Below are positions 54,122 through 63,960 of a DNA stretch of 64,000 nt, in pieces. The stretch's first letter is position 1. The number at the start of each line of letters is the position of its first letter. The notes under the pieces were generated by a model that saw nothing but the letters and a program-made list of their open reading frames with translations, made no database searches and was not told where the DNA came from. Origin of the DNA: Thalassospira lucentensis (GTDB lineage: Bacteria > Pseudomonadota > Alphaproteobacteria > Rhodospirillales > Thalassospiraceae); NCBI RefSeq assembly GCF_001613805.1, contig NZ_LPVY01000011.1, forward strand, positions 62,001 through 126,000. Reading direction: 5' to 3'. The translations under genes were made by a program, and so were the position numbers.

Positions 54122-55577
<1,456 letters not shown>

Positions 55578-55685: not shown

Positions 55686-56693
55686 ATGAAGTCTGGTACT
55701 TTCCATCTTTCCCGTCGTGCAATGCTGTCGGCCATGGCCGCAGTAGCCGCGGTGGTATCTTTTGGCCTTGGCGCACCGGCAATGGCCGCCGACCCGATCA
55801 AGGTTTCGGCGATCTACACCGTTCCGGTCGAACAGCAATGGGTTTCACGTATCCACAAGGCGCTGAATGCGGCCCAGGAACGTGGCGACATCACCTATGA
55901 ATTTTCCGAAAACGTCGCCAATACCGACTATGAACGCGTGATGCGTGAATATGCCGAAAATGGCTCGGCCCTTATTCTGGGCGAAGTTTTCGGTGTTGAA
56001 CGCGCGGCTCGGAAGGTTGCCGCCGATTATCCCGAAACCGCGTTTCTGATGGGTTCGAGCTTCGGCCCCGAAGGCGACAATTTCTCGGTCTTTGACAACT
56101 ACATCCATGAACCAAGCTATCTCGTCGGCATGGCGGCTGGCAAGGCGACCAAATCGAACAAGATCGGCATGGTCGGGGGCTTTGCCATTCCGGAAGTCAA
56201 CCGCCTGATGAATGCCTTTATGGAAGGTGCCAAATCGGTCAATCCGGATGTCGAATTCACCGTGACCTTCATCAATAGCTGGTATGACCCGCCCAAGGCA
56301 AAAGAAGCCGCGTTTGCGATGATCGATAAGGGTGCCGACGTCATGTATGCCGAACGCTTTGGCGTTTCGGATGCTGCCAAGGAACGCGGTGTTCTTGCGG
56401 TTGGCAACGTGATTGATACCGCAGCCGATTATCCGGGCACCATTCTGGGTTCGGCACTCTGGCATATGGAACCGACCGTTGATCACGCTATTGCCGCCGT
56501 CAAGGCGGGAGAATTCAAGGCCGAAGATTACGGCAAGTTCAGCTATATGGCACCGGGTGGCGGCACCGTCGTTCTGGATGGCGCCCTTCTGCCCAATGGA
56601 ACCGTTGCCGAAGTTGAAGCCAAGCAGGCTGAAATTCTTGATGGCAGCTTTACCGTCAACGTAAATGACGAAGAACCGAAATCTTCCATGTAA
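55686..56693 (+). CDS. BMP-family ABC transporter substrate-binding protein
   Basis: A 335-residue exported protein of the basic membrane protein (PnrA/Med) family, which bind nucleosides or similar bases. The signal segment is MKSGTFHLSRRAMLSAMAAV, with SRRAML resembling a twin-arginine motif. The mature part has the family features KVSAIYTVPVEQQWVSRIHK and NEEEP-like end NVNDEEPKSSM. The ATG at 55686 was chosen over an upstream one because it begins at the signal peptide and has AGGGGGAC upstream. A strong hairpin separates it from the ATPase gene. Genes for ATPase, two permeases, deaminase and flavin reductase follow. Confidence 0.92.
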   Translation: MKSGTFHLSRRAMLSAMAAVAAVVSFGLGAPAMAADPIKVSAIYTVPVEQQWVSRIHKALNAAQERGDITYEFSENVANTDYERVMREYAENGSALILGEVFGVERAARKVAADYPETAFLMGSSFGPEGDNFSVFDNYIHEPSYLVGMAAGKATKSNKIGMVGGFAIPEVNRLMNAFMEGAKSVNPDVEFTVTFINSWYDPPKAKEAAFAMIDKGADVMYAERFGVSDAAKERGVLAVGNVIDTAADYPGTILGSALWHMEPTVDHAIAAVKAGEFKAEDYGKFSYMAPGGGTVVLDGALLPNGTVAEVEAKQAEILDGSFTVNVNDEEPKSSM

Positions 56694-56711
56694 GATTTCT
56701 TCCACTTTGCG

Positions 56712-56748
56712 GGCAGTCCGGTTTAAACATCGGACTGCCTTTCGTTTT
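56712..56748 (+). terminator. Intra-operon terminator or attenuator after the substrate-binding protein
   Basis: GGCAGTCCG (56712-56720) pairs perfectly with CGGACTGCC (56731-56739), with a 10-base loop, followed by TTTCGTTTT. It sits 18 bases after the binding-protein stop and 69 bases before the ATPase ATG. It would give more binding protein than transporter. Confidence 0.75.
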
Positions 56749-56817: not shown

Positions 56818-58467
56818 ATGTCATCTGCTGCCAACCCATCTTTGGAAACGTCCCCGCAATTGCTGCTGCAACTGGCTGCAATCACCAAGAAATTCGGCCC
56901 CCTGATCGCCAATGACGCCATCGACCTTGATGTGCACAAGGGTGAAATCGTTGCCCTGCTTGGCGAAAACGGTGCGGGCAAAACCACCCTGATGAACATC
57001 CTGTTTGGCCATTATGTCGCCGACGGGGGAACCGTGATGGTCGCGGGTGCGGATGGCATCCTTGCCCCGCTTGAACCCGGCACACCGCAGGCGGCCCTTG
57101 ATGCCGGCATCGGCATGGTTCATCAGCATTTCACGCTGGCCGAAAATCTAAGCGGCCTTGATAATATTGTCCTTGGTACGGAACCGATTTTCCGCCTGCG
57201 CCGCGACCGCACCGGTGCACGGGCCAAACTGACGAAGCTGATGGCGGGATCGGGTCTTAACGTCGATCTTGATCAGCCGGTTCACAAACTGACCGTCGGC
57301 GAAAAGCAGCGCGTTGAAATCCTTAAAGCCCTTTATCGCGATGCCCGTTTGCTGGTGCTTGACGAACCGACCGCGGTTCTGACGCCGCAGGAGGCAGACA
57401 GCCTTTTTGCAACCCTTCGCCAACTTGCCGCGACCGGGCTTTCGGTCATTATCATTGCCCATAAACTGGCCGAGGTTCTGGCGGTTTCCCATCGCATCGC
57501 GGTTCTGCGCGGCGGCAAAAAGGTTGGCGAAATGGCAACCGATCAGGCCGACCGGCGATCAATTGCCGAATTGATGGTTGGCCGCGATGTTCCGGTCAGC
57601 CGACGCAGCGAACGCGTACCGGGCAAACCGGTCATAGGACTTCGGGATGTTACGATTGATCGTGGCGATGCCAGACGTTCCCTTCATGGGGTGAACCTTA
57701 TGGCGCGTGAAGGCGAAATTCTTGGCATTGCCGGGGTATCGGGTAACGGGCAGGCGGCGTTGGCACAATTGATTGCAGGGCTGGATCGTCCTGATATTGG
57801 TTCAGTCGAGATTTTTGGTGAAAAAGTCACGAAATTCGATGCCCATCAGTTCGCCCAGAATGGCATCGCTCGCATTCCCGAAGACCGCCATCATGACGGC
57901 ATGGTCGGATCGATGACGGTGGCGGAAAACATCGCCATTGAAGATGTCCGGTCCCCCGATTACCAGAAATTTGGCTTTCTTGATTTCGAGGCAATCCGCA
58001 AACGGGCCGAACATGCAATTGTAGATTATGATGTGCGCTGCCCGGGCCAGGATGCCCCTGCACGCCTATTATCTGGCGGGAATATTCAAAAACTTATCCT
58101 TGCTCGCGTACTGGAAAAATCACCAAAACTGATCCTCGCCAACCAGCCATCACGCGGACTTGACGTTGGTGCGCAATCCGAAGTCCACAGGCGGCTTCTT
58201 GAGGCACGCGAAGGCGGGGCAGCGGTGGTTCTGATATCCGAGGATCTCGATGAACTTCTGACCCTGTCCGATCAGATTGCGGTGATTCATGCCGGTCATG
58301 TATCGGCAGCAATTGCGGCACATGATATCGACAGGTCCGAGCTTGGCCTGATGATGGCTGGACAGAAAAAAGGCGATATCGATTTCGGGGCTGATAATTT
58401 TGAGTCCAGCACAAAGCCCCGCGAAAAAGCCGATGAAAATGCCCCAAGATCAGGAGACCCGGCGTGA
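56818..58467 (+). CDS. BMP-type ABC transporter ATP-binding protein (two nucleotide-binding domains)
   Basis: A 549-residue tandem ATPase. The first domain has Walker A GENGAGKTT at 49-57, signature TVGEKQRVEI and Walker B LLVLDEPTAVL. The second has a degenerate Walker A (GVSGNGQAALAQLIAG), signature LLSGGNIQKL and ILANQPSRGLDVGA, where the usual catalytic DE pair reads NQ. This pattern is typical of nucleoside/monosaccharide-type ABC proteins such as NupA. The C-terminal tail is Asp/Glu/Lys-rich. Its last bases overlap the GTG of the first permease. Confidence 0.95.
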   Translation: MSSAANPSLETSPQLLLQLAAITKKFGPLIANDAIDLDVHKGEIVALLGENGAGKTTLMNILFGHYVADGGTVMVAGADGILAPLEPGTPQAALDAGIGMVHQHFTLAENLSGLDNIVLGTEPIFRLRRDRTGARAKLTKLMAGSGLNVDLDQPVHKLTVGEKQRVEILKALYRDARLLVLDEPTAVLTPQEADSLFATLRQLAATGLSVIIIAHKLAEVLAVSHRIAVLRGGKKVGEMATDQADRRSIAELMVGRDVPVSRRSERVPGKPVIGLRDVTIDRGDARRSLHGVNLMAREGEILGIAGVSGNGQAALAQLIAGLDRPDIGSVEIFGEKVTKFDAHQFAQNGIARIPEDRHHDGMVGSMTVAENIAIEDVRSPDYQKFGFLDFEAIRKRAEHAIVDYDVRCPGQDAPARLLSGGNIQKLILARVLEKSPKLILANQPSRGLDVGAQSEVHRRLLEAREGGAAVVLISEDLDELLTLSDQIAVIHAGHVSAAIAAHDIDRSELGLMMAGQKKGDIDFGADNFESSTKPREKADENAPRSGDPA

Positions 58468-59534
58468 TTCGGTTTGAACCCCGCACCAATCCACCCGCAA
58501 TCATGGTCTATGGCGTGCCTGTCATGGCGGCAATTATCGCCATTCTTCTGGCGGCGATCCCACTTGCCTTGGCCGGGGCACCGATCATCAAGGCCTATGG
58601 CCTGATGATTAGTGGCGCTTTCGGATCGATGTTTTCAATTTCGGAAATGCTGACACGTGCGACACCGTTGATCCTGACCGGGTTGGCAGCCGCCATCGCA
58701 TTTCGGGCCAAGCTTTGGAATATCGGGGCCGAGGGGCAGCTTTACATGGGGGCCATGGCCGCCGTTGCCATCGGATCAGGTGTCATTGACGGGCCAAGCT
58801 ATATCATGATCCCGGTGGTGCTGATTGCCGGGGCTCTCGCCGGGGCAGTGATGCTGATCGGGCCGACGCTTTTGAAAACGCGGCTGGGGGTGGACGAGGT
58901 CGTGACCACCTTGCTTCTGAACTTCATCGTCATTCTGTTTGTGCAGATGATGCTCGAAGGTGCGCTGAAAGACCCGATGTCGATGGGGTGGCCCCAGTCC
59001 GAACCGGTGATTGATAGCGCCGTCCTACCGCCGCTGATCGATCGGATGCGGGTGCATATGGGGCTTCTGGTCGCGCTGATATGTGCCGTGGCTTTGGCGA
59101 TTTTCGTCAAGCGCACCGTCTGGGGATTTGAAATCCGCGCTGTTGGTGAAAATGCCGCCGCAGCCAGGTTTTCCGGCATTTCGGTGACCAAAACCATGGT
59201 GCTGGTCGCGATGCTGTCTGGTGGTTTGGCCGGACTTGCCGGTGTATCGGAAGTGGCGGGAACCCGTGGCTACCTCGCGACCGATCTGTCGCCGGGTTAT
59301 GGCTATGCCGGGATCGTCGTTGCCATGCTGGCCCGGCTGTCACCGATTGGCGTGATCATTTCCGCACTGTTTGTGGCGTCGGTTTTTGTCGGTGCAGATT
59401 CCATGAGCCGCGCGATTGGCGTTTCAAGTTATCTGGCCGATCTGATTGTCGCAATGGCGTTGCTGTGCGTTTTGATCGGCGGGTTTCTGACCCGGTTCAT
59501 GGTCCATTTCGAACGCCAGAAATCGGCGGGTTAA
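58464..59534 (+). CDS. ABC transporter permease (NupB-like)
   Basis: A 356-residue BPD_transp_2-type permease with about eight to nine membrane helices. Features include LTRATPLILTGLAAAIAFRA, KLWNIGAEGQLYMGAMAAV and FEIRAVGENAAAARFSGISV. It starts at a GTG that shares bases with the ATPase stop (GTGA). It pairs with the next permease. Confidence 0.94.
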   Translation: MIRFEPRTNPPAIMVYGVPVMAAIIAILLAAIPLALAGAPIIKAYGLMISGAFGSMFSISEMLTRATPLILTGLAAAIAFRAKLWNIGAEGQLYMGAMAAVAIGSGVIDGPSYIMIPVVLIAGALAGAVMLIGPTLLKTRLGVDEVVTTLLLNFIVILFVQMMLEGALKDPMSMGWPQSEPVIDSAVLPPLIDRMRVHMGLLVALICAVALAIFVKRTVWGFEIRAVGENAAAARFSGISVTKTMVLVAMLSGGLAGLAGVSEVAGTRGYLATDLSPGYGYAGIVVAMLARLSPIGVIISALFVASVFVGADSMSRAIGVSSYLADLIVAMALLCVLIGGFLTRFMVHFERQKSAG

Positions 59535-59546
59535 AGGGTAAAGACC

Positions 59547-60488
59547 ATGGAAATCATCGATATCCTTTTGACCGCAAATTTCTGGGCCGCAGCCCTTCGT
59601 ATTGCAACACCGCTGATTTTCGGGGTGCTGGGCGCGCTGATTTGTGAACGCGCCGGAGTTCTTAACCTTGGCATCGAAGGCATTTTCACCGCCGGGGCGA
59701 TGGCAGGATGGATGGCTGTCTGGCTGGGTGCCGGATTATGGGGTGGCGTTCTGGTCGCCGCCCTGGCCGGGGGATTTTTCGGCCTGATCCACGCGATCCT
59801 GACCGTGCCGCTTGGCCTTTCACAGCATGTGTCTGGGATCGGGGTGACGTTGCTGGCGACCAGTCTGTCGTATTTCACCTATCGCACGGCATTACCCGAT
59901 GTGTCGTCCCCGCCGCGGATCATCCCGTTCCAGCCGCTTGATATCCCAATCCTGTCGGATTTGCCGTTTATCGGCCCAGCACTCTTTTCGCAAACAGCCC
60001 TTACGATGCTGGCGCTTGTCATGGTGTTTGTCACCGGCTGGGTTTTGTATCGCACCCCGCTTGGCCTTGCGATCCGGGCGGTTGGCGATAATCCGCCCTC
60101 GGTCGAGGCGCAAGGGTTATCGGTTTATGCGCTGCGCATCGGGGCCGTGGTTGCCGGATCAAGCCTGATGGCATTGGGCGGTGCGTTTCTGACCATGTCG
60201 GCGTTTGATGCATTTTTCTTTGGCATGATCAATGGTCGTGGCTGGGTTTGTATTGCACTGACGGTGTTTGCAAGCTGGCGACCGGGCAAGGCGTTGCTGG
60301 GTGCGTTGCTGTTTGGCGCGTTTGATGCGTTTCAGGTCCGCCTGCAAACCGAGGTCGGCGCGTTCCTGCCATCGCAGGTTTTCCTGATGATGCCTTATCT
60401 GTTATCGATTGCCGCCCTGATCATTGTCGCGCGCAAGGCCGATTATCCCAAGGCGTTGCTGGTGCCATGGTTCAAGGGGCAGCGTTGA
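59547..60488 (+). CDS. ABC transporter permease (NupC-like)
   Basis: A 313-residue BPD_transp_2 permease with about eight helices; motifs are RIATPLIFGVLGALICERAG, VLNLGIEGIFTAGAMAGW and LAIRAVGDNPPSVEAQGLSV. The ATG at 59547 follows the first permease after 12 bases with AAGGGTAAAGACC upstream. With the preceding permease, ATPase and BMP protein it completes the importer. Confidence 0.94.
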   Translation: MEIIDILLTANFWAAALRIATPLIFGVLGALICERAGVLNLGIEGIFTAGAMAGWMAVWLGAGLWGGVLVAALAGGFFGLIHAILTVPLGLSQHVSGIGVTLLATSLSYFTYRTALPDVSSPPRIIPFQPLDIPILSDLPFIGPALFSQTALTMLALVMVFVTGWVLYRTPLGLAIRAVGDNPPSVEAQGLSVYALRIGAVVAGSSLMALGGAFLTMSAFDAFFFGMINGRGWVCIALTVFASWRPGKALLGALLFGAFDAFQVRLQTEVGAFLPSQVFLMMPYLLSIAALIIVARKADYPKALLVPWFKGQR

Positions 60489-60557: not shown

Positions 60558-61862
60558 ATGCAAGCCGATCTGATCCTGAAAAATGCCAATCTGCCCGATG
60601 GCCGTACCGGCGTTGATATCGCATGCAAGGATGGCAAGATCATCGAAATCGGGCCGCAATTGCCGATCCTGGCGGCCGAGGAAATCGATTGCGACGGGAT
60701 GCTGGTCAGCCCGCCCTTCGTCGACAGCCATTTCCATATGGATGCGACCCTGTCCCTGGGCCTGCCACGGATGAATGAGTCAGGTACGCTGCTGGAAGGC
60801 ATCGCACTTTGGGGCGAGCTTAAGCCGCTTTTAACGATAGAGGCAGTGATCGAACGTGCGCTTCGTTATTGCGATCTGGCAGTGTCCAAGGGCCTGCTTG
60901 CCATTCGAAGCCATGTCGATGTCTGTGATGACCGTCTGCTTGCGGTCGATGCGTTGCTGGATGTCAAAAAACAGGTCGCCCCCTATATTGATCTGCAACT
61001 GGTCGCCTTTCCGCAGGACGGTTATCTGCGCAGCCCGACGGCAAAGCAGAATGTCATTCGCGCACTTGATAAAGGTGTCGATGTTGTTGGCGGTATTCCG
61101 CATTTCGAGCGCACCATGGCGGACGGCGCGCAAAGCATCACCGAACTTTGCGAAATGGCGGCCAACCGGGGCCTTCGGGTTGATATGCATTGCGATGAAA
61201 CCGACGACCCGCTGTCACGTCATATCGAAATGCTGGCCTATGAAACGCAGCGCCTTGGCCTTCAGGGACGGGTCGCCGGTTCGCATCTGACATCGATGCA
61301 TTCGATGGATAATTATTATGTATCGAAACTGATCGCCCTGATGACCGAGGCTGAGGTCAGCGCGATTGCCAATCCGCTGATCAACATCACCCTTCAGGGA
61401 CGCCACGATACATATCCCAAACGCCGCGGCATGACGCGTGTGTCCGAATTGCGCAAGGCGGGTCTTACTGTGGCATTCGGCCATGATTGCGTGATGGACC
61501 CTTGGTATTCTATGGGATCGGGCGATATGCTTGAAGTCGCATCGATGGGGCTTCATGTGGCGCAGATGACATCACGTGATGATATCCGGGCGTGTTTTGA
61601 CGCGGTAACAACCGAACCGGCAAAAATCATGGGCCTTGAAGGCTACGGGATTGCGGTTGGCAACAATGCCGATTTCGTCGTGTTGCAGGCCCGCGATACA
61701 ATAGAAGCCATCCGGCTGCGCGCCAACCGGCTTTATGTCATCCGGCGTGGCAACATCATCGCCGAGACCCCGTTGCAGCAAACCCGCCTGCATCTTTCGG
61801 AACGGCCAGAAACACTGCGCGGCGATGATTATGCTCCCCGTTCGGGCGATCAACAGGAATAG
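60558..61862 (+). CDS. codA: CodA-family amidohydrolase, predicted 5-methylcytosine deaminase
   Basis: A 434-residue metal-dependent deaminase aligning without obvious gap through the key sites of E. coli cytosine deaminase at a constant offset of three: His58 and His60 (DSHFHMD), His211 and Glu214 (HCDE), His243 (GSHLTSMH), Asp310 (FGHDC). They correspond to CodA His61, His63, His214, Glu217, His246 and Asp313. CodA Asp314, which excludes 5-substituted pyrimidines, is Cys311 here. Homologues lacking that Asp (as in Rhodobacter and Klebsiella) were shown to deaminate 5-methylcytosine to thymine. The PKRRGMTRV and DPWYSMGSGDML stretches are also conserved. Expected substrate: 5-methylcytosine, perhaps cytosine. 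Preceded by the importer genes. Confidence 0.9.
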   Translation: MQADLILKNANLPDGRTGVDIACKDGKIIEIGPQLPILAAEEIDCDGMLVSPPFVDSHFHMDATLSLGLPRMNESGTLLEGIALWGELKPLLTIEAVIERALRYCDLAVSKGLLAIRSHVDVCDDRLLAVDALLDVKKQVAPYIDLQLVAFPQDGYLRSPTAKQNVIRALDKGVDVVGGIPHFERTMADGAQSITELCEMAANRGLRVDMHCDETDDPLSRHIEMLAYETQRLGLQGRVAGSHLTSMHSMDNYYVSKLIALMTEAEVSAIANPLINITLQGRHDTYPKRRGMTRVSELRKAGLTVAFGHDCVMDPWYSMGSGDMLEVASMGLHVAQMTSRDDIRACFDAVTTEPAKIMGLEGYGIAVGNNADFVVLQARDTIEAIRLRANRLYVIRRGNIIAETPLQQTRLHLSERPETLRGDDYAPRSGDQQE

Positions 61863-61872
61863 CGGAAACATC

Positions 61873-62475
61873 ATGTTTTACGAACCCGGAAAAACACCCC
61901 ATAACCTACCGCATGATCCGTTCAAGGCCTGCGTCGCGCCGCGTCCGATTGGCTGGATTTCGACGGTCGATAAACACGGGCACGCCAATCTGGCCCCCTA
62001 TTCATTTTTCAATGCGGTTTGTGGTAATCCGCCAATGGTCATGTTTGCATCCGGTGGATCGATTGACAGCCTGAACAATGCCCGTGAAACCGGCGAGTTT
62101 ATTGCCGCAGTCGCCCCGCGTGCCATGCTGCGCGAAATCAATTTCTGTTCGGCTCCGTTACCGCCGGAACAGGACGAATTTGATTATGCCGGTCTTGAAA
62201 AGGAACCCGGCAAACTGGTCCGCGCACACCGGATCAAAGGGGTGCCGATCCATATGGAATGCAAGGTGTTCCAGATTGTCGATCTGCCTGGCCCCACCCC
62301 GCAAAGCGAAAACGCGATGGTAATCGGTACAGTGGTCGGCTTGCATATCGATGATGCAATCATTCGTGACGGCATGGTCGATGTCACCCTGTTCGAGCCA
62401 CTGGCAAGGCTGGGCTATCACGAATATGCCAGTGTTGCGGAAACCTTTACCGTCCGGCGCGAGGATTTCTGGTAA
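61873..62475 (+). CDS. Flavin reductase-like FMN-binding split-barrel protein
   Basis: A 200-residue DIM6/NTAB-family protein with the motif CVAPRPIGWISTVDKHG near the start, then LAPYSFFNAVCGNPPMVMFA and the middle NARETGEFIAAVAPR. It binds FMN and probably supplies reduced flavin to an oxygenase or acts as an oxidoreductase. I chose the ATG at 61873, 10 bases after the deaminase stop with AGCGGAAAC upstream. It is not clearly RutF by sequence, but a flavin reductase beside a pyrimidine deaminase suggests a role in pyrimidine catabolism. Last gene of the operon. Confidence 0.9.
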   Translation: MFYEPGKTPHNLPHDPFKACVAPRPIGWISTVDKHGHANLAPYSFFNAVCGNPPMVMFASGGSIDSLNNARETGEFIAAVAPRAMLREINFCSAPLPPEQDEFDYAGLEKEPGKLVRAHRIKGVPIHMECKVFQIVDLPGPTPQSENAMVIGTVVGLHIDDAIIRDGMVDVTLFEPLARLGYHEYASVAETFTVRREDFW

Positions 62476-62658: not shown

Positions 62659-63960
62659 ATGAAACGGACGATTGCAGCCGGTTTTGCCGGTATTGCTGCA
62701 ATGCTTCTTGCGACAACGGCAATGGCGGGCGAGGCCAAGGTTTTCGAAACCAAAAGTGCGATTAACAATCTGTCGACTGTCATGGTGGATGGCGGCAAGG
62801 CACGTGACCTGACGGTTGGTTTCGGTTCGGGTGCCTATCGCCGTCCGGGTGATCCGACCAATATGTTTTATGCGGTATCGGATCGCGGTCCGAACTTTGT
62901 TTGCGATGACGTGCAGGACGTGCTTGGCGTTTCCGAAGATGTCGTTTGCCAGGGCCGCAAGGTTCGCGTCTATCCGACCCCGGATTATTCGCCGTCGATC
63001 TACACCATCTTCCTGAATGATGACGGCAGCTTTGACGTCAAGGATGTCATTGCGCTGAAAGACCAAAATGGTGTGCCACTGACCGGTTTGACCAACAAAC
63101 TGTCAGTTGCCAAAACCGAAAAGCCGGTCGATGCCAATGGCAAGGAACTGGCACAGTCGGTTTCGTCGATCGATGCCGAAGGTATCATTCGCCTGTCGGA
63201 TGGTTCGTACTGGATCGGTGAAGAAAATGGCCCGTCGATCCTGCATGTCGCTGCTGATGGCACGGTTAATGAACGTATTGTTCCGGCCGGCTCGGAAAAG
63301 GACTTCGAAGGTGCTGCCTATAAGGTTAGCGGCGGCCTTCCGGCGATCCTTGTCACCCGCCAGACCAACCGCGGCATTGAATCGATGGCCGTGTCGCCCG
63401 ATGAAAGCAAACTGTATTTCATGGTGCAGAACCCGCTGGCGAACCCGAATGCCGATGCGTACAAAACCGCCAAGAATACCCGTCTGTTTGTCTATGACCG
63501 CGTAAAGGGCGAGCTTGCAGGCGAATATATCTATCAACTTGATGATCCGCAGACCTTCCGCAACGATCCGTCCGACAAACAGAATGCTCCACGCATTTCC
63601 GAGGTCCTTGGCCTTGGCGATGACCGCCTGCTGGTTCTGGAACGGACCGATGGCACCACCAAACTGCATGAAGTCAAACTTGATGGTGCATCGAACATTC
63701 TGGCATCGCGCTGGGACGACATGTCGACCAGCCCGTCGCTTGAACAGGAAAACGACCTGTCAAAGCTTGACCTGAAGGCAGTTGTTAAAACCCTTCGTTT
63801 TGACAGTGCCGATTATCCGATGGCCCCGACCAAGATCGAAGGTCTTGCGGTTATGGGTGACGGTGCGCTCGCCCTGATCAATGACAACGATTTCGGCATC
63901 AAGGGTGATGCCACCAAGGTACTTCTGATCGACGGTCTGGTTCAGGCCGACAAGTTCTGA
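62659..63960 (+). CDS. Exported phytase-like esterase/beta-propeller protein
   Basis: A 433-residue protein with a signal peptide (MKRTIAAGFAGIAAMLLATTAMAG, cleavage near A-G). The rest matches the family described as esterase-like activity of phytase: VSDRGPNFVCDD, DAEGIIRLSDGSYWIGEENG, PSILHVAADG and NRGIESMAVSPDESKLYFMV. The acidic and Asn-rich loops would bind calcium in a beta-propeller. It may act on phosphate esters or a similar outside substrate. The ATG at 62659 is chosen because it begins the signal peptide. It lies 183 bases after the operon and probably has its own promoter. The window ends 40 bases after its stop. Confidence 0.85.
   Translation: MKRTIAAGFAGIAAMLLATTAMAGEAKVFETKSAINNLSTVMVDGGKARDLTVGFGSGAYRRPGDPTNMFYAVSDRGPNFVCDDVQDVLGVSEDVVCQGRKVRVYPTPDYSPSIYTIFLNDDGSFDVKDVIALKDQNGVPLTGLTNKLSVAKTEKPVDANGKELAQSVSSIDAEGIIRLSDGSYWIGEENGPSILHVAADGTVNERIVPAGSEKDFEGAAYKVSGGLPAILVTRQTNRGIESMAVSPDESKLYFMVQNPLANPNADAYKTAKNTRLFVYDRVKGELAGEYIYQLDDPQTFRNDPSDKQNAPRISEVLGLGDDRLLVLERTDGTTKLHEVKLDGASNILASRWDDMSTSPSLEQENDLSKLDLKAVVKTLRFDSADYPMAPTKIEGLAVMGDGALALINDNDFGIKGDATKVLLIDGLVQADKF

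Follow-up and report, generated by a model that had tools for sequence, protein, structure and literature searches.

A CodA-type amidohydrolase with cysteine at the Asp314 position, predicted to deaminate 5-methylcytosine, and its linked importer genes in Thalassospira lucentensis

A deaminase gene of Thalassospira lucentensis raises the question of whether its product acts on cytosine, on 5-methylcytosine (5mC) or on both, and of how the base would be obtained. The window analyzed here is a 64,000-nucleotide stretch of contig NZ_LPVY01000011.1 (C11 below). A sequence-only reading had proposed that the gene encodes a homologue of E. coli CodA in which Cys replaces Asp314, with 5mC as substrate. 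The gene and its diagnostic codon were recorded as follows:

60558..61862, + strand: predicted deaminase of 5-methylcytosine/cytosine, an amidohydrolase of the CodA type bearing Cys at 314 (434 aa; ATG start, intact frame; NF005748 at 795 bits, alignments, tree)
61488..61490, + strand: Cys311 codon (TGC); the residue pairs with Asp314 of CodA, which discriminates between substrates (sequence and phmmer alignments)

With good confidence, the enzyme is predicted to convert 5mC to thymine; cytosine, giving uracil, is a probable second substrate. Both activities are read from sequence.

Active-site residues of the deaminase

The translated frame carried His58, His60, His211, Glu214, His243 and Asp310, corresponding at an offset of -3 to the whole metal and catalytic set of CodA (His61, His63, His214, Glu217, His246 and Asp313). 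The complete protein was searched against the PDB with phmmer and matched the E. coli CodA chain 1k6w at E = 2.9e-107; chains 4r7w, 4r85 and 4r88, which we take to be Klebsiella Kpn00632, were matched at E = 2.1e-100. The offset of three was constant along the 1k6w alignment (e.g., window Glu214 vs chain position 217) and all of the named residues were aligned, as had been claimed. The predicted CodA fold is fixed by the match at 1e-107, and an AtzC-type isopropylammelide hydrolase was not the closest solved relative (E 1e-40 vs 1e-107 for CodA; phmmer).

Cys311 was placed opposite Asp at 1k6w position 314 without gaps (phmmer; 293 + 21 in the chain, residue 22 of the query stretch). Its surroundings, GHDCVMDPWY, were likewise free of gaps in phmmer, blastp and MAFFT alignments. 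This bears out the proposed pairing of Cys311 with CodA Asp314 and refutes the notion of a classical CodA misread through an alignment shift, with Asp really at 314, to which we assign next to no probability. At the same place, chains 1r9y, 1r9z and 1r9x, presumably engineered D314 mutants of CodA, carried Ala, Ser and Gly, respectively (phmmer alignment).

Family profiles were compared for the window deaminase and CodA. The NCBIfam CodA-type subfamily model NF005748, named cytosine deaminase, was matched by the window deaminase at 795 bits (cut-off 438) and by E. coli CodA at 491 bits; the label is therefore uninformative on substrate, and NF005748 was rejected as a marker separating 5mC deaminases from CodA. 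The window deaminase, in which Asp at 314 is also absent (Cys311), scored 427.6 bits against the classical CodA model NF006685, under its cut-off of 483.

E. coli CodA shares 43.5% identity and every metal and catalytic residue with the window deaminase; it differs in having Asp314 where the window has Cys, and codA adjoins the permease gene codB. Kpn00632 is of the same family, has the same metal site and has also lost Asp314 (to Ser). Its near relative in Enterobacter (L073, Ser type; best PDB match 4r7w, E 4e-251) is, however, 42% identical to the window deaminase and lies in the CodA branch, with its gene near codB and not beside a BMP importer. Kpn00632 was rejected as the nearest model for the window deaminase because L073 clusters with CodA.

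Passages of PMC6186785 describe CodA as essentially unable to use 5mC and its Asp-to-Ala mutant as able to do so, and place Ser at the Asp314 position of the Klebsiella enzyme. By analogy with these two, the exchange of Asp314 for Cys, close to where C5 of the pyrimidine lies, would make room for the 5-methyl group. The window protein would then work as a metal-dependent amidohydrolase that deaminates 5mC to thymine, and probably cytosine to uracil, keeping CodA's metal site and its general acid/base residues.

Position 314 among relatives and the Cereibacter orthologue

Relatives were gathered from 177 fetched loci, giving 178 ORF hits and 132 distinct sequences, none of which was dropped for length. 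Close relatives were defined as those with >55% identity to the window deaminase (n = 98) and had Cys (94) or Ser (4) at position 314, and Asp in no case; among the 75 lying outside the genus (taken here as identity <=80% to the window deaminase), Cys was found in 71 and Ser in 4. The remaining 34 distant relatives carried Asp (14), Ser (14), Asn (4) or Cys (2). The catalytic set H,H,Q,H,E,H,D was retained in 98/98 close relatives. As judged from these alignments, Cys at 314 is no chance substitution and is kept among close relatives; it is more general than the sequence-only reading stated.

A quick maximum-likelihood tree was built from 79 of the 132 sequences after thinning at 82% identity, a step that took out most Cereibacter rows; the window gene was drawn as copy L023. 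In this tree, which has long outgroup branches and SH-aLRT support without bootstrap, the window-gene branch included the C. johrii orthologue and held 52/79 rows (SH-aLRT 99): 49 with Cys, out of 51 such rows in the tree, and three with Ser. The Asp-bearing CodA and the Ser-bearing Kpn00632 type fell together in a separate branch of 19 rows (SH-aLRT 96). Besides the outgroup, seven rows stood outside both branches, and two of these had Cys (L203b and L205), so that Cys is not unique to the window-gene branch. Named members of the branch came from Rhizobium, Sinorhizobium, Azospirillum, Tritonibacter, Paracoccus and Shinella. The gene was present in 24/29 genomes of the genus (E<=1e-60), with five lacking it, and in 43/385 sampled genomes of the class (E<=1e-80). 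The Cys type is the usual form of the deaminase in the sampled branch, and members annotated simply as cytosine deaminases may accept more substrates than that name suggests.

One Ser-type relative (L120, genome G121) had no importer and adjoined a phage-type integrase gene, which suggests a mobile copy.

Five Cereibacter genomes (C. johrii and four others) were searched for CodA homologues (E<=1e-20), and exactly one was found in each. All had Cys at 314 and 63-67% identity to the window deaminase; in the G413 homologue a TGA lay inside the matched stretch, yet an open frame spanned query residues 4-421. With one homologue in each of the five genomes, C. sphaeroides, whichever of them it is, has one such gene. 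Genome G416, taken as C. sphaeroides, matched the C. sphaeroides KD131 plasmid at 97-99% and C. johrii matched the same plasmid at 96-97%; a stretch of the ATCC 17029 plasmid was present in C. johrii at 96% and was not found in G416. A PUCC-family gene was located 27 kb from the deaminase gene in G416, which presumably fits strain 2.4.1 and the tag RSP_0341. The Cereibacter homologue is accordingly identified as Rsp0341 by elimination rather than by locus tag.

Hitchcock and colleagues reportedly showed in 2014 that Rsp0341 deaminates 5-methylcytosine, at a kcat/Km of about 3x10^4 M-1 s-1. Loss of Asp314 in CodA homologues is said to have been that study's criterion for bacterial 5-methylcytosine deaminases; the defining functional marks of the group would be conversion of 5mC to thymine in vitro and growth support of an E. 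coli thymine auxotroph on 5mC. Of the two sequence characters of the group, the window deaminase shows both: Asp314 is lost (Cys311), and the protein shares a branch with the C. johrii orthologue. In addition to the 63-67% identity and Cys at 314, the order BMP-ATPase-permease-permease-deaminase was identical to that of the window and complete in the four Cereibacter loci that span the operon; in C. johrii the contig breaks off inside the ATPase gene, and both permeases and the partial ATPase follow the same order. The Cereibacter proteins differ in reading GQDC where the window deaminase has GHDC. It is this orthology, with Rsp0341 assigned by elimination, that makes activity of the window deaminase on 5mC a well-supported prediction.

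The importer operon

The deaminase gene is preceded by a BMP-type ABC importer operon, which had been overlooked in the sequence-only reading. The importer genes and the two genes 3' of the deaminase are:

55686..56693, + strand: substrate-binding component of the ABC importer, BMP/PnrA-like (335 aa; N terminus resembling a signal peptide, read by eye)
56818..58467, + strand: ABC importer ATPase (549 aa, containing two ABC domains; profile matches)
58464..59534, + strand: ABC importer permease A (BPD_transp_2; 356 aa; profile matches)
59547..60488, + strand: ABC importer permease B (BPD_transp_2; 313 aa; end to deaminase start, 69 bases)
61873-62475, + strand: flavin-reductase-like gene, 3' of the deaminase
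62659-63960, + strand: phytase-like (PF13449) gene, 3' of the deaminase

Linkage was scored at 45 loci outside the genus, hand-picked rather than random (nine on named plasmids, four from Cereibacter and 32 class-level hits); the C. johrii locus, on a 4 kb contig (L108), was excluded from this count. Importer genes were counted when on the same strand and within 8 kb, and ATPase matches of <45% identity were not counted. Neighbours were counted by homology; calling of longest non-overlapping ORFs was confounded by antisense ORFs in GC-rich loci. The importer was linked to the deaminase in 33/45 loci, with four genes in 30 and three genes in 3, and lay downstream rather than upstream in three of the 33 (L071, L074 and L079). 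No importer gene was found on the same strand within 8 kb at the other 12 loci. Neighbour scans of eight of these 12 returned various other genes and no BMP-type importer; formamidase-family genes occurred at two of the eight (L148 and L149), and L139 had an arginase-family gene.

The flavin-reductase-like and phytase-like genes were considered as further operon members and rejected; they were present at 7/7 loci of the genus and 0/45 outside it, with a variable gap.

A terminator-like hairpin of 12 pairs lies at 56711-56740 (+ strand), between the binding-protein and ATPase genes, and possibly sets the binding protein in excess. Terminator-like sites in the region numbered 13, vs 9.0 +/- 3.0 in shuffles.

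The nearest solved relative of the window binding protein was AtzT (PDB 6pi5; phmmer E 9e-33), a periplasmic protein binding guanine and 2-hydroxyatrazine, which, according to passages of PMC6834077, retained guanine. AtzT pocket residues were mapped by hand on the phmmer output, with an offset of 5 worked out by the analyst. The places of Phe98, Glu165 and Trp194 were retained in the window protein, whereas those of Tyr45 (with Trp next to it), Ser97, Asn169, Asn218 and Asn220 were all changed. In every one of the 40 operon-linked binding proteins, 7 from the genus and 33 from beyond it, Trp stood at the place of residue 52 of the window protein and Glu at those of 170 and 223; the Trp194 place was Phe in 7/40. 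These sequence patterns point to one common type of ligand, other than guanine, for the operon-linked proteins; we infer a base of the cytosine type. The upstream importer would then bring in the base or its nucleoside. In the literature searched, no bacterial ABC importer for 5mC was found; in yeast, the permease Fcy2 is needed for uptake of cytosine and 5mC, as stated in passages of PMC12299217.

Substrate in the cell and source of the base

Homologues of the window deaminase were sought in its own genome (E<=0.001), and no Asp314-type CodA was found. The second match (L002, C11:20332-21528) had 30% identity, with Phe where the catalytic Glu would be and Asn where the metal-ligand Asp would be; this paralogue probably catalyses another reaction or none. 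The third was a 66-residue fragment. Given the lack of an Asp314-type CodA, the window deaminase may equally be the cytosine deaminase of the cell. Two proteins encoded on contig C7 passed the cut-offs of their models: PreA, at 668 bits against 335, and a dihydropyrimidinase, at 610 bits against 393. The same contig encodes a PreT-like protein, for which no model exceeded its cut-off, a hydantoinase/carbamoylase-family hydrolase, an omega-aminotransferase, and a RutR-like regulator and a nitrilase-like protein (both below cut-off). The reductive pyrimidine pathway accepts both uracil and thymine, and with these genes on C7 the genome can probably degrade both. PreA, the PreT-like protein, the dihydropyrimidinase and the carbamoylase-like hydrolase could break down either product of the deaminase.

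These findings bear on how the enzyme is used in vivo. It may serve as an ordinary cytosine deaminase, supplied by an importer for cytosine or cytidine, with Cys only broadening the pocket and 5mC turnover incidental. This is compatible with activity on 5mC and is given somewhat under an even chance. It draws on the genome search just described, on the NCBIfam subfamily name, and on URC4 (PF07958, DUF1688) and upp genes near the linked operon at two of the 45 loci outside the genus (L076, at 1016-2889, and L137). The URC route degrades uracil, and the presence of these genes favours use of cytosine via uracil at those two loci. Against it, Asp314 was kept in 0/98 close relatives, which would be odd were 5mC never used, and the reductive pathway at hand takes thymine as well as uracil. 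The original 5mC assignment therefore stands as a predicted activity, carried by kinship to the sole Cereibacter homologue and the common operon layout; as a claim that 5mC is the specific physiological substrate it is not supported, given the lack of an Asp314-type CodA and the uracil-pathway genes at two loci.

It is improbable that the linked transporter brings in some different small heterocycle (isocytosine, isoguanine, a hydroxymethylpyrimidine or creatinine) as the main substrate of the enzyme. Other deaminases of the superfamily do act on such compounds, isocytosine being among those named in passages of PMC6186785. The differences from AtzT in the binding-protein pocket and an amidase gene inserted between the binding-protein and ATPase genes at three loci (L070, L075 and L079) would also fit, but the close kinship to the only CodA homologue of Cereibacter and the retention of all CodA metal and catalytic residues, together with Gln153, argue against this reading.

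Deamination of 5mC (and probably cytosine) remains the preferred reading for the enzyme. For the operon as a whole, we tentatively propose a widespread import-and-deaminate system, a reading that we regard as possible though rather doubtful: an ABC importer of the BMP type, whose binding pocket has a conserved signature of its own, would take up free 5mC (or cytosine) from decaying DNA and RNA, coupled to a Cys-type deaminase, so that methylated bases would yield nitrogen and thymine. The deamination step and the kind of enzyme are already known, the conserved pairing with an importer is less explored, and the conserved operon is a testable candidate for bacterial uptake of a modified base.

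The sequence-only reading had also noted that the region encodes no cytosine methyltransferase and had taken outside DNA as the likely source of the base. The former holds for the window contig, where PF00145 had no match on C11, but a profile search of the genome returned two open PF00145 genes for C5-cytosine methyltransferases, one on contig C20 and one on C18 and so beyond the window, both with PCQ and EN motifs (read by eye). With two such genes in the organism's own genome, an outside origin of the base is not required.

A CcrM-like adenine methyltransferase with a RAMA domain is encoded at 54122-55222 (- strand), divergent from the importer operon; it scored 631 bits against the CcrM model, below the cut-off of 830. 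The C18 cytosine methyltransferase gene (L019, 270-2886) adjoins a gene for an MvaI/BcnI-family endonuclease, and the two are likely a restriction-modification pair.
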